Below, piece after piece: positions 31,412 to 36,162 of a stretch of DNA of 64,000 nt; the first letter of the stretch is position 1, and every line of letters starts with the position of its first letter. A program made the position numbers and the translations under genes. The notes under the pieces were generated by a model. That model saw nothing but the letters and a program-made list of their open reading frames with translations. It was not told where the DNA came from and did not search any database. Source of the stretch: Anaerolineaceae bacterium (GTDB lineage Bacteria > Chloroflexota > Anaerolineae > Anaerolineales > UBA11657); the NCBI GenBank assembly GCA_003569365.1, contig BGOS01000006.1, forward strand, positions 205,198-269,197. Reading direction: 5' to 3'.

Positions 31412-32236
31412 TCACCGTGCAGCGCCAGCCTGCCACAGGCTGCGGTACAGCCACGCTGTGCCAAACAGCAGCGCACAGGTGAGCACAATTGCACTGCCCG
31501 CCGCCACAGAAAAATAGTACGAGGCATACAGTCCCACGCTGGCGGAGCATGCAGCCAGCAGTGCGGCAATCGCCATCATGCGCGGCAGCCGGTTGGTGAG
31601 CAATGCCGCAGCCGCAGCCGGCGTCACAAGCAATGCAGAGGTGAGCACCACGCCGGCCACCTTCAGGCCCGTTACCACCATCAGCGCCAGCAGTGCCAGC
31701 AGGCCATAGCGCACAAGATCGGGATTGAGCCCCATCACCTGCGCATGCAAGGGATCAAATGATGTGAGTTCCAGCTCCTTGTGAAAGAGCGCCAAAACCA
31801 GCAGCACCAGCGCACACATGGCCGAGATCAGCAGCAGGTCTGCGCGCGTGACGCCCAGGATGTTGCCGAACAAAATATGCGTGAAGTCGCGGAAAGAACG
31901 CATGCCGCTGAGCATCAAAATACCAAGGGCAAACATGGCGGTGAAGAGCACCCCAATCGCAGTATCTTCGCGCACAGTTGCACGCCGTGAGATCCACCCG
32001 ATGCCCAGCGCCGTCAGCAGCCCGGCCACCAGCGCACCCACAAAAAGATTCCAGCCGTACAGATAGGCTACCACTACGCCCGGCAGCGCGGTATGCGCCA
32101 GCGCATCCCCGATGAAAGCCATGCGCCGCAGCACCACATACACGCCCAGCACCGCACAAGTGACGCCCACCAGCAGCGCGGCCAGCAGCCCCGTTTGCAT
32201 GAAGGTAAATTGGAGCGGGGCAAGCAGCCAGTTCAT
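31412..32236 (-). CDS. zinc/manganese ABC transporter permease (ABC-3 family)
   Basis: Inner-membrane permease of 274 residues, with seven to eight TM helices, of the ZnuB/MntB family. Landmarks are RRMAFIGDALAHTALPGVV (coupling region with His), TAIGVLFTAMFALGILML and the late ALLVTPAAAAALLT. Its ATG overlaps the ATPase stop (ATGA), so it is coupled. It is part of the binding protein, ATPase and permease set for divalent metal import. Confidence 0.92.
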   Translation of the reverse strand: MNWLLAPLQFTFMQTGLLAALLVGVTCAVLGVYVVLRRMAFIGDALAHTALPGVVVAYLYGWNLFVGALVAGLLTALGIGWISRRATVREDTAIGVLFTAMFALGILMLSGMRSFRDFTHILFGNILGVTRADLLLISAMCALVLLVLALFHKELELTSFDPLHAQVMGLNPDLVRYGLLALLALMVVTGLKVAGVVLTSALLVTPAAAAALLTNRLPRMMAIAALLAACSASVGLYASYYFSVAAGSAIVLTCALLFGTAWLYRSLWQAGAAR

Positions 32237-32985
32237 ACTGCGGGCCCGGCTGCAGTGCGCTGCCGCTGCATTGGTTCGCCGCCTGCGGCTGGCAGCACGC
32301 GCCCCTCACTGAGAAACACGGCGCTGTCAAACTCGGCCGCCAGTCCGCTCACATCGTGCGTCGCAACCAGCAGCGTGCGCCCGCGCGCGCGCAGTTCGTC
32401 CATCACGGTCGCCAGCACTGTGCGCGTCTCCGCGTCAACTGCAATCAGCGGCTCATCCAGCAGCAGCACCTCTGCCTCTTGCGCCAGCGCCCGCGCTAGC
32501 AGCGCGCGCTGCTGCTGGCCGCCGCTGAGCTGCGCAATCTGGCGCGCGGCCATTTGCGCCAACCCCAGGCGCGCAATCAGCGCGTCACAGATTGCGTAGT
32601 CTTGCAGGCTGGGCCGGCGCAACCAACCCAAATGTACATAACGCCCGGTAAGCACCAGCTTGCGCAGTTCGATGGGGAATTGCCAGTCAATCTCGCCGTG
32701 CTGCGGCAGGTATGCCACACGATGATGGCAGGCGCCGATCGGCCGCCCGCAAATGCGCACCCGCCCGCTAAAAGGCAGCAAGCCGGCAACCGCCTTCAGC
32801 AATGTGGACTTGCCAGCCCCGTTGTGGCCCACCAGCGCCACGCGCGCACCCACCGGCACGCTCAGCTGCACTTGCTGCAGCGCCGGCGCAGCCGATCCCG
32901 GATAGCTCACGCTTTCCAAGTCCAGCTCCAGCGCGGGTGCGCCCGCAACCGGGTCAACGTGCCGGCGATTGCCGTAGGGAAACAT
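32233..32985 (-). CDS. zinc/manganese ABC transporter ATP-binding protein
   Basis: ATPase of about 250 residues of the ZnuC/MntA family. Walker A is GHNGAGKST, the Q loop is YLPQHGEIDWQFPI, the signature is LSGGQQQR, Walker B is VLLLDEP and the H loop is LLVATHD. The Q-loop EIDWxFP sequence is typical of Mn/Zn transporters. ATG at 32985 is preferred over the GTG one codon earlier. The gap to the binding-protein gene is 9 nt. Confidence 0.92.
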   Translation of the reverse strand: MFPYGNRRHVDPVAGAPALELDLESVSYPGSAAPALQQVQLSVPVGARVALVGHNGAGKSTLLKAVAGLLPFSGRVRICGRPIGACHHRVAYLPQHGEIDWQFPIELRKLVLTGRYVHLGWLRRPSLQDYAICDALIARLGLAQMAARQIAQLSGGQQQRALLARALAQEAEVLLLDEPLIAVDAETRTVLATVMDELRARGRTLLVATHDVSGLAAEFDSAVFLSEGRVLPAAGGEPMQRQRTAAGPAV

Positions 32986-32994
32986 CACAATGGG

Positions 32995-33960
32995 TTACTT
33001 GCCTAGCGCCCCGGCAATCACAGCTATGTTGCTGCGCATCAGCTTCAGATAAGTCTCGCCAGCAGAACCGGGTTCGCCAAGTGCGTCAGTATACAGTTCG
33101 GGCGCAAAGCTGATGCCCGCCTCAAGTGCAATCTGGTCCATCAACTGCGAGTTGTGCGTGTTCTCCGTGAAGACTGCCGGCACGCCCGCAGCTTTGATCG
33201 CCTGCACCAAATCCGCCACCTGAGCTGCCGACGGGTCAGATGCCTCAGTGCTGAAGGAGGCCAGCGCGGTGCCTGCCACTGCAAACCCGTAGCGCGCAGC
33301 AAAATATCCAAGCGCATCGTGCGAAGTGAACAGCACGCGCCGCGCGGCCGGCAGCGCATTTGCCTGCGCAAATATTTCCACATCCAGTTTCTCCAGCTCT
33401 GCAATGTAAGCCGCGGCGTTGGCCTCATAGGCGCTGGTGTTGGCCGGGTCAGCCTTCACCAGCGCATTGCGCACATTCTTTGCCGCCAGGATCCAGTTGG
33501 AAACGCTGTGCCAGATGTGCGGATCAACCTCGCCGTGATGGTGGTCGCCCTCCGCGGCGTGATCGTCCGCTGCTGCGCCGGCATGGGCTTCGCCTTCTTC
33601 CGCTGCCGCCAGCGGTTCGATGCCTGCACTCACTTCCACCCGCAACGCCTTGGAGTCTGCGGCGGCAAACGCATCGTCCAGCCAGCCTTCAAACTCGAGG
33701 CCGTTTTCAAACATCAGTCCCGCCTTCGCAATCTGCGCTATATCCTGCGGCGTGGGTTCGAAGGTGTGGGCATCCCCGCCCGCACCCACCAGCACCAGCA
33801 GCGCAATCCTGTCGCCGCCCACATTCTTAACAAGGTCGCCAAGAATGCTGTGCGTGGCGACAACCTGCAGCACGCCGCCCGCCATTGGCACCGCGGGCGC
33901 ACCACAAGCTGCTGCGAGCAGCCCGGCTGCGGCAATCATTGCAAAAAGTTTTCTTATCAT
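32995..33960 (-). CDS. zinc/manganese ABC transporter substrate-binding lipoprotein
   Basis: Cluster A-I metal-binding lipoprotein of 321 residues. The lipobox is LLAAACG. Metal ligand candidates are His in VATHSILGD, DPHIWHS and LFTSHDALGY, and an acid near YTDALGEPGS. A His/acid-rich loop (DDHAAEGDHHHGEVDPH) precedes the second ligand, which favours zinc over manganese by family precedent. It captures metal outside the membrane for the adjacent permease and ATPase. The 193-nt gap upstream should hold the promoter. I saw no clear operator in it. Confidence 0.92.
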   Translation of the reverse strand: MIRKLFAMIAAAGLLAAACGAPAVPMAGGVLQVVATHSILGDLVKNVGGDRIALLVLVGAGGDAHTFEPTPQDIAQIAKAGLMFENGLEFEGWLDDAFAAADSKALRVEVSAGIEPLAAAEEGEAHAGAAADDHAAEGDHHHGEVDPHIWHSVSNWILAAKNVRNALVKADPANTSAYEANAAAYIAELEKLDVEIFAQANALPAARRVLFTSHDALGYFAARYGFAVAGTALASFSTEASDPSAAQVADLVQAIKAAGVPAVFTENTHNSQLMDQIALEAGISFAPELYTDALGEPGSAGETYLKLMRSNIAVIAGALGK

Positions 33961-34153
33961 TAAAGTGGCTCTTGCGGAAATTAAATTGGGGTTGCAGGCA
34001 ACAATTTTTGCAGCTGCCCGGCATGCATTGCCAGCCAGTGCGGCTTGGCAATCCTCTGATCCCAAGACGATACTACATTGTGGAGCGGATGGTTGTGTAA
34101 TTTGGCACGCCGGTTAGTGTGCGGTTTTACACCGGCGCCCGCGGCGCAAACTA

Positions 34154-34513: not shown

Positions 34514-34665
34514 CCATCACAAAAGCGCGGGCTGAACCCCGGTCTCCACGAATTGCCGGCGGAATCCTTTTGGCGTCAACAGTTGGAAAATGCGGCGAAA
34601 GTCCCTCGGTAAGTTCACCTCACATTTTTCTGCGCCACATCTTTATAAATTGCTTGTACAAATAT

Positions 34666-34694
34666 GTGACAAGCAGTTTTGATTGCGATATATT
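34666..34694 (+). promoter_or_regulatory. promoter of the MerR-redoxin / selenoprotein genes
   Basis: GTGACA (34666-34671), an exact 17-bp spacer and TATATT (34689-34694) make a near-consensus promoter. Transcription would start near 34701, where an in-frame GTG stands, so the regulator mRNA may be leaderless or nearly so. Confidence 0.6.
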
Positions 34695-34700
34695 CCGCGG

Positions 34701-35570
34701 GTGGACTTCCAGCATGGTCAATCCAGCGGGCGCTTGCCCCACTACAATGTGAAAGCAGTTGCCAATCTGGTGGGAATTGCTCCGGTTACTTTGCGAGCGT
34801 GGGAGCGGCGCTACGGCCTGCCGACACCGCTGCGCGGCAGCCAAGGATACAGGCTTTACTCGGATCACGATGTGCGCACGCTGCTTTGGCTGAAGGCCCG
34901 CACTGCTGAGGGCATGTCCATCAGCCGGGCTGCTGAGCAGCTACTGCACATGCGTAGCACTGGCGCGGACCCGGCTGGCGATGCCGCACTGGTTGAACGC
35001 CGGGAAGGCGCATTGTTGCTTGCCGGCATGCCGGCACCCGGTCTCACACTGCATGACGCGCATGGGGAGCCGGTGGAACTTGCATCCATGTGGGGCACGT
35101 CAAACATTGTTATCAGCCTCATGCGCCATTTTGGCTGCATCTTTTGCCGCGAGTGGCTGCACAAGCTGGAGACCTGTGTGCCGGCACTGCGGGCTGCCAA
35201 TATCCTTCCAATCGTAGTGGGGCTGGGAGACACCGACCATGCACTGCCCGTTGCGTCACAACTGGCTCCCAGCGCACTGTGCCTGATGTCGCAGGGCGCC
35301 AATGCCCACTTCACTTACGGACTAAAACGCGGCAGCCTCTTGCAATTGGCGGGGCCCGCGGTAATTTCTTCCGTGGTGCGCGCGGCACGCTCCGGCCAGA
35401 TGCAGGGTGAAACCACGGGGGACATATCCATGCTCAGTGGCGTCTTTGCCATCGATATGGCCGGCATGGTGCGCTATTCATTTTACGGAAGCCACGCCGG
35501 TGATCATCCGTCGCCCGACACATTCGTCGCTACGGTGCGCAGCGCCTTTCAAGCAGCCCAGCCCGCCTGA
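34701..35570 (+). CDS. MerR-type regulator fused to a thioredoxin-fold (AhpC/TSA-like) domain
   Basis: About 289 residues. The N-terminal DNA-binding domain is of the MerR/CarH type (AVANLVGIAP, LRAWERRYGLPTP, GYRLYSDHDVRTLLWLKA). From about residue 105 there is a redoxin/peroxiredoxin-like domain with LASMWGTSNIVISLMRHFG then CIFCREWL, a CxxC active site. The next gene encodes a paralogue of this second domain with nearly the same active-site sequence. Likely a redox sensor controlling that gene (inference). The start is uncertain: GTG 34701 sits at the predicted transcription start, and TTG 34734 or GTG 34749 are alternatives. Confidence 0.82.
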   Translation: MDFQHGQSSGRLPHYNVKAVANLVGIAPVTLRAWERRYGLPTPLRGSQGYRLYSDHDVRTLLWLKARTAEGMSISRAAEQLLHMRSTGADPAGDAALVERREGALLLAGMPAPGLTLHDAHGEPVELASMWGTSNIVISLMRHFGCIFCREWLHKLETCVPALRAANILPIVVGLGDTDHALPVASQLAPSALCLMSQGANAHFTYGLKRGSLLQLAGPAVISSVVRAARSGQMQGETTGDISMLSGVFAIDMAGMVRYSFYGSHAGDHPSPDTFVATVRSAFQAAQPA

Positions 35571-35580
35571 CCCAAACACA

Positions 35581-36162
35581 ATGACTGAATTAAAATATAC
35601 GAGCGCGGATTCCCTGCGAGTTGGGAGCGTTGCGCCCAGTCTCACCTTGCTGGATGCTGCGGGCGCGCCCGCCGTGCTTTCGGAGCTGTGGGCGGCGGGT
35701 CCGCTGTTGCTTACATTTTTGCGTCACTTTGGCTGAATATTCTGCCGCGAGTGGCTGGCCCAGTTGGGCCGGCATCAAGCCGAAATCGAAGCCGCCGGCC
35801 TGCGCGTGGTCGCCGTCGGCATTGGCGAACCAAAGCATGCCCAACATTTCTGCCCAACCTTAGCGCCGCACGCAACGTGCATTTCCCTGCCAGAGCCGCT
35901 GGCACACCACGCTTACGGGCTGCGGGTGGCGTCGCTTTCAAACCTGGTGAATGTGCAAACTCTTAAACACGGGTGGCGCGCCATGCGCGAAGGGCACATG
36001 CAAACCCGGGCCACTGGCGACGAGCGGCAGCTCGGCGGCACCTTTGTGGTCTCCCGTTCGGGCATTGTGGAGTTCGCTCAAGTTAGCGCTATTGCCGGCG
36101 ATCATGCGGATATTCCAACCGTGCTTGCCGCGCATCGGGCGTGGGAAGCGCACAACTTGTGA
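35581..36162 (+). CDS. selenocysteine-containing redoxin (UxxC, SelU/AhpC-TSA-like)
   Basis: ATG at 35581 to TGA at 36160-36162, 193 codons, with an in-frame TGA at 35734-35736 (codon 52). Around it the protein reads LRHFG-U-IFCREWLAQLG, while the upstream paralogue has RHFG-C-IFCREWL, so TGA replaces the first Cys of the CxxC active site. The frame after it is intact for 141 codons and clearly homologous to redoxin domains (VVAVGIGEPKHAQHF, GGTFVVSRSGIVEF). A hairpin 18 nt after the TGA fits a bacterial SECIS. A conventional caller would split this gene. It probably reduces peroxides or disulfides in the cytoplasm. Confidence 0.85.
35754..35773 (+). promoter_or_regulatory. putative bacterial SECIS element
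   Basis: Stem GCTGGCCC (35754-35761), loop AGTT, stem GGGCCGGC (35766-35773): eight pairs, one of them T-G. The apical loop starts 25 nt after the TGA and contains a G. Known bacterial SECIS hairpins lie just downstream of the UGA with a small loop and an unpaired G. It would recruit SelB for selenocysteine insertion. Confidence 0.7.

Follow-up and report, generated by a model that had tools for sequence, protein, structure and literature searches.

Does the TGA triplet that stands at the active site of a redoxin gene in an Anaerolineaceae bacterium end the protein, or does it encode a selenocysteine (Sec)? We examined this question in a stretch of 64,000 nucleotides (assembly GCA_003569365.1, contig BGOS01000006.1, positions 205,198 to 269,197; hereafter the window) and in the genome from which it derives (G000; 2.63 Mb in 30 contigs, 95.5% complete). 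The features under discussion are collected in Table 1. In agreement with the original prediction, the triplet replaces the first cysteine of a CxxC motif: the Sec-redoxin reads RHFG-U-IFC where its upstream neighbour, a paralogue, reads RHFGCIFC, followed by REWL, with TGC at 35136-35138. The predicted open frame of 141 codons on the 3' side of the TGA is likewise present, and the other two forward frames contain two stops each over that distance.

Table 1. Coordinates of the features discussed in the text (window positions unless another source is given).
Feature	Position	Strand	Remarks
Candidate operator, TTGTACAAATATGTGACAA with preceding bases; overlaps the -35 box	34651..34672	+	Conserved among three congeneric species
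Predicted sigma-70 promoter, GTGACA - 17 nt - TATATT	34666..34694	+	10/12 matches
Fusion of MerR DNA-binding domain and CxxC redoxin, 289 aa	34701..35570	+	Start at GTG 34701
CIFC motif of the fused redoxin	35136..35147	+	
Sec-redoxin gene, UIFC, SelL-related	35581..36162	+	ATG start, TGA stop; 193 codons plus stop
In-frame TGA, residue 52, predicted selenocysteine	35734..35736	+	Conserved column, hairpin model
TGC, Cys55, predicted resolving cysteine	35743..35745	+	Invariant in a 25-row alignment; role inferred from family
SECIS-like hairpin, 8 pairs, loop AGTT (35762-35765)	35754..35773	+	Stem 35754-35761 with 35766-35773
SelA match, split	L009 and L010, G000:C11:46114-47192		Two overlapping frames

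Relative to the orthologue in the same-genus genome G001, the differences at codon positions 1, 2 and 3 number 6/2/18 before the TGA and 17/12/53 after it. They are thus densest at third positions on either side, so that both halves look as if they had been kept as one protein, and the prediction of homologous codons on both flanks is borne out. Gene callers end or start the gene at its active-site codon, to judge from P0002 (141 aa), an entry that represents 26 member sequences in the database and whose N-terminus lies directly after the TGA; as a consequence, the enzyme goes unnoticed. Translation could in principle begin where this entry begins, giving a shorter protein with one active-site cysteine, and an ORF of the same genus (L111) does start there with ATG. 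The corresponding codon of the window is ATA, however, the 51 codons 5' of the TGA are conserved as protein and pass the family profile, and a late start would sacrifice 153 of the 579 coding bases together with the first active-site residue. We consider such a start highly unlikely.

A homologue search of 101 genomes (the source genome itself and others of its genus, family and order) found homologues in 54, and 30 homologous loci were retained and read, providing the alignment of the Cys/Sec column that the original prediction had proposed as a check. The catalytic column holds TGA in 23 of these loci, all of them read base by base, and cysteine in the other seven. Four of the 23 (L035, L039, L040 and L042) have a second TGA, giving UxxU, and the genus mates G001 and G002 carry the TGA at 81-82% identity. 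By hand count from the homologue table, 44 genomes have a TGA-bearing match; since the base-by-base reading covers 23 loci, the TGA may sit elsewhere within the match in the other genomes. A tblastn search of plasmid records returned four records, at 28-29% identity. Were the TGA due to a nonsense mutation, or to an error of sequencing, in what is really a gene for a cysteine redoxin, a single base change from TGC would be enough; the close paralogue carries TGC, and errors or decay do occur in this genome, since its SelA is itself split over two frames. Such an accident is nevertheless exceedingly improbable in view of the identical TGA in both genus mates and in 23 of the 30 loci, the codon-like divergence before and after it, and the covariation of the hairpin described below. 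Separately, another branch of short redoxins from the same order (L047-L050) has TGA in the same column, within the motif NRxFxUPFC.

A hairpin of eight pairs with a loop of four nucleotides had been predicted 18 nt past the TGA, and the structure exists as drawn; counted from the triplet, the 18th base opens the stem. Covariation was assessed in an alignment of 22 distinct rows that contains all 23 TGA loci. In this alignment 68.2% of cells are paired and 34 are doubly changed, and none of 500 shuffles matched the paired share, the doubly changed cells or the covariation score; two weak measures, pairs with a double change and further pair types, were matched by 119 and 205 of the 500 shuffles, respectively. 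Shifting the stem partners reduced all measures, except for a tie on pair types at a shift of +2. The outer stem pairs are frequently broken across loci, and the loop is shifted in three of the UxxU loci (L035, L039 and L042). A second set of 17 loci, drawn up without these three and without the genus (L021-L023), gave 76.5% paired cells and 27 doubly changed cells, again with no match in 500 shuffles, and the two weak measures were matched by 96 and 89 of 500. A hairpin model built from the same 17 out-of-genus loci scored the TGA site of the window at 52.1 bits (E 4.9e-19) and the second-best site in the window at 12.4 bits. The Cys paralogue received 12.0 bits, a useful control because the model captures sequence as well as structure. 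Across the whole of G000 (150 of 2986 candidates scored) the model found 20 further sites, all at 17.9 bits or below. Five model-site loci were inspected for a second selenoprotein of the same type; four of them have a TGA, and none was convincing.

Thermodynamic stability was a less discriminating measure. Folding energies range from -6.8 to -17.5 kcal/mol in the Sec loci and from -1.3 to -7.9 kcal/mol in the Cys loci (the paralogue plus seven homologues with Cys), and the two ranges overlap. Among 1000 synonymous recodings of the window hairpin, 1.5% fold equally well or better (p 0.015). The corresponding p is below 0.05 in 10 of the 23 loci and reaches 0.52 in the worst; combined over 21 of the 23 loci (L022 and L023 excluded) it is 1.1e-9, a value that ignores relatedness. 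Hairpin stability on its own is only modest evidence for a SECIS element.

The genome encodes parts of the machinery for selenium use. SelB was found at 310.6 bits (cut-off 242) and SelD at 364.1 bits (cut-off 125), and the selD gene (L020:1501-2439 = G000:C23:196969-197907) has an in-frame TGA of its own, in the context TCAG-U-ASK and followed by a hairpin. This context fits UxxK, which PMC13188914 gives as the motif of Sec-containing SelD, and SelD is likely a second selenoprotein of this genome. SelA is matched by two overlapping pieces in different frames (245.6 and 172.1 bits). Among seven relatives searched, five have SelA in a single frame (G002, G003, G007, G008 and G056), the match in G001, close to the end of a contig, stops at profile position 179 as the one in G000 does, and none was found in G066. 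SelB is present in 71 of the 101 genomes, with 40 of the 44 that have a TGA-bearing match against 31 of the other 57 (Fisher p 5.9e-5, relatedness ignored). It was not found in four TGA-match genomes, G027, G043, G048 and G050 (90, 78, 86 and 76% complete); for the last of these, the search for tRNA-Sec gave a match at 72.1 bits.

The tRNA is the missing piece. A search of G000 with Rfam model RF01852 found no tRNA-Sec over the cut-off (150 of 429 candidates scored), and ARAGORN read eight matches below the cut-off as other tRNAs. Neither the G007 locus DNA as a query nor an anticodon-loop/T-loop pattern (0 matches) located the gene in G000, and no match over the cut-off was found in G001 and G002 (150 of 269 and 150 of 303 candidates scored) or in G008. 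Eleven of 14 relatives do have one over the cut-off, including G007 of the same family, and ARAGORN read tRNA-SeC at all six loci tried. In G007 the gene lies near tRNA-Phe(GAA), tRNA-Gly(GCC) and tRNA-Cys(GCA). A tRNA family search of G000, with all 74 candidates scored, yielded 40 genes, every one of which ARAGORN could read, and among them there is no tRNA for Sec, Phe, Cys, Gly(GCC), Ile(GAT) or Ala(TGC). Since tRNA-Phe and tRNA-Cys are indispensable to any cell, the assembly must be missing sequence, plausibly the tRNA cluster that holds selC in G007. We infer that the absence of selC reflects this gap, which accounts for the absence and does not prove that the gene is present. The original prediction had named selA, selB, selD and tRNA-Sec as genes to look for, and the lack of selAB or selC as evidence against it; SelB, SelD and a split SelA were found and tRNA-Sec was not, so that part of this contrary evidence does hold for the assembly.

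That absence would suit a suppressor tRNA that reads UGA as cysteine or tryptophan and makes the protein selenium-free. We regard such decoding as very unlikely, given the SelB and TGA-bearing SelD of this genome and the presence of SelB in 40 of the 44 genomes with a TGA-bearing match; the hairpin, moreover, would serve no purpose. Selenocysteine is the best reading of the TGA on the strength of the conserved column, the covarying SECIS-like hairpin, the SelA, SelB and SelD matches and the TGA-bearing selD, in line with what had been predicted. It is very probable that the triplet is read in this way by means of the hairpin, yielding a SelL-related enzyme of UxxC type that we predict to be a peroxide or disulfide reductase. 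SelB would direct insertion at the TGA, aided by the hairpin. By comparison with the family, Sec52 would attack the oxidant, either a peroxide or a disulfide, Cys55 would resolve the resulting intermediate, and a thioredoxin-like partner would reduce the Sec52/Cys55 pair.

With the TGA read as cysteine, the Sec-redoxin matches PF13911 (AhpC-TSA_2) at 36.1 bits (cut-off 27), PF00578 at 33.5 bits (cut-off 26) and the NCBIfam model NF040769, SelL-related redox protein, at 128.4 bits (cut-off 120). Because it exceeds this last cut-off, it does not found a new family and represents a UxxC form; the description as a new selenoprotein thus holds for the gene and not for the family, which was already known. 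The defining motif of SelL proper is UxxU, with two selenocysteines, whereas the window protein has UIFC and falls outside SelL proper. Peroxiredoxin-like thiol:disulfide oxidoreductases with UxxC or UxxU are described in PMC13188914 and PMC9312934, and the window protein resembles the UxxC forms listed there, differing from other SelL-related proteins by the MerR-redoxin fusion that adjoins it. The predicted structure (mean pLDDT 94.4) has a peroxiredoxin fold. The best solved relative by profile is human prostamide/prostaglandin F synthase (PDB 9us9, 9usa; 8.5e-18). Together with the PF13911 and NF040769 matches, this shows that the initial assignment to a SelU/AhpC-TSA-like group was close. 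The CxxC of the human enzyme aligns with UIFC, placing a cysteine where the window protein has Sec; the two share 23% identity and a Foldseek TM-score of 0.66 by query length. Foldseek ranks structures of AhpE from Mycobacterium tuberculosis first (4xih, 1xxu and further entries), with TM-scores of 0.64-0.66 by query length and about 24% identity; the PDB titles name AhpE a 1-Cys peroxiredoxin.

The less expected part of the locus is the MerR-redoxin fusion beside the selenoprotein. Its MerR domain scores 47.1 bits with PF13411 (cut-off 21.6) and its redoxin half 93.7 bits with NF040769, below the cut-off of 120. The ORF list begins the fusion at TTG 34683, just 5' of the -10 box. A database search with the fusion gave 3172 matches, and among the best 120, which were examined, we found the window's own protein, ten others with a redoxin half (P0044-P0053) and one single redoxin; B12-binding domains are found in almost all of the remainder. 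In the tree, the redoxin half of the window fusion joins those of the ten others in one clade (support 100/99), nested with modest support (83/82) in a group with single Sec and Cys redoxins. As far as the tree goes, the fusion likely arose in a single event. RHFGCxxC is kept in all 11 fusions, and both CarH motifs, E/DxHxxG and Wx9EH, are absent from all 11; the three MerR-B12 neighbours tested have both. Pfam detects no B12-binding domain in the window fusion. Its MerR domain is common to the B12-dependent light sensors CarH/LitR (PMC8156234), and the best MerR-B12 match shows 71% identity over 34%, but the fusion has a CxxC redoxin in place of the B12-binding domain and the CarH motifs. A literature search by title, mainly of open sources, recognised no MerR-peroxiredoxin fusion.

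For seven loci among the 23 with TGA, the gene upstream of the Sec-redoxin was examined. Within the genus, at its three loci (the window, or L021; L022, identical with L111; and L023, identical with L112) a MerR motif lies upstream, and the fusion could be read whole in the window and in L111, in both of which 10 bases separate it from the Sec-redoxin gene. In L024, L025 and L027, from related families (two genera of f11, one of f4), the upstream gene is of MerR-B12 type with both CarH motifs, and in L026, from the genus of L027, there is no MerR gene beside the Sec-redoxin. The fusion of the genus therefore occupies the position of the CarH-type gene in L024, L025 and L027. The window, L024 and L025 also have in common the genes that follow, a small protein that lacks a Pfam match and by eye looks SRPBCC-like, and a PF01593 protein that depends on FAD; only in the window, in contrast to L024 and L025, does an MFS transporter lie between the two.

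Upstream of the fusion, the three species of the genus share TTGTACAAAT, a -35 box of GAGACA or GTGACA, a spacer of 17 nt and TATATT. The promoter is kept in L111 and L112, and in all three species the start codon lies 6 nt past the -10 box, so that the MerR-redoxin message may be nearly leaderless. The operator pattern (34654-34672) occurs once in the window against 0.01 expected in shuffles, a figure to be read with the fact that the pattern was drawn from the same alignment. According to PMC8156234, the CarH operator consists of tandem 11-bp repeats, nAnnTnnACAn, that overlap the promoter. The candidate operator overlaps its promoter as well and is CarH-like only in part: one 11-bp unit at 34651 matches four of the five fixed positions, and a further unit, at 34638, does not fall in register with it. 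With five fixed positions, a four-of-five match arises by chance about once per 70 positions, which makes this likeness a lead. Two TTGTACA units lie 5' of the MerR-B12 gene in L024, and TGTACA is absent before that gene in L025 and L027. It is possible that the window has kept a CarH-type operator and that the fusion regulates itself.

From its own promoter, the MerR-redoxin may regulate both genes, its DNA binding being altered upon oxidation of the CxxC, a proposal that we put forward tentatively, at somewhat below even probability. It would be in keeping with GCxxC in 11 of 11 fusions, the 10-base spacing, the conserved promoter and the operator-like sequence; the partly CarH-like nature of the operator repeats and the Sec-redoxin of L026, with no MerR neighbour, count against it. 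Alternatively, the redoxin half may be no redox switch and may instead be used for dimerisation or for another ligand, as its score under the NF040769 cut-off and the moderate confidence of the fusion's predicted structure (mean pLDDT 74.9) would allow. We give this second account about an even chance of being right; against it stand the RHFGCxxC kept in every fusion and the gene for a redoxin enzyme that lies directly 3' in the genus.

Should the redox-switch proposal apply, a more specific scenario, speculative and rather doubtful at present, is that a light repressor of CarH type became a thiol sensor when its B12 domain was swapped for a redoxin. The neighbouring kind of redoxin would have supplied the new half, with the fusion retaining CxxC and the enzyme using Sec. 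The two proteins would act as a relay: the Sec-redoxin would encounter the oxidant first, the oxidation would move on to the MerR-redoxin's CxxC, and the regulator would then open its own operon. A regulator working in this manner would be a natural case, in one and the same gene order, of light sensing giving way to the sensing of redox state. A Sec enzyme and its Cys relative would also stand side by side in one operon, where the contribution of selenium could be measured directly, if the reading is true.

On the minus strand of the window, at 31412-34065, three ORFs resemble by eye the parts of a zinc/manganese ABC transporter, namely a permease, an ATPase and a His-rich binding protein.
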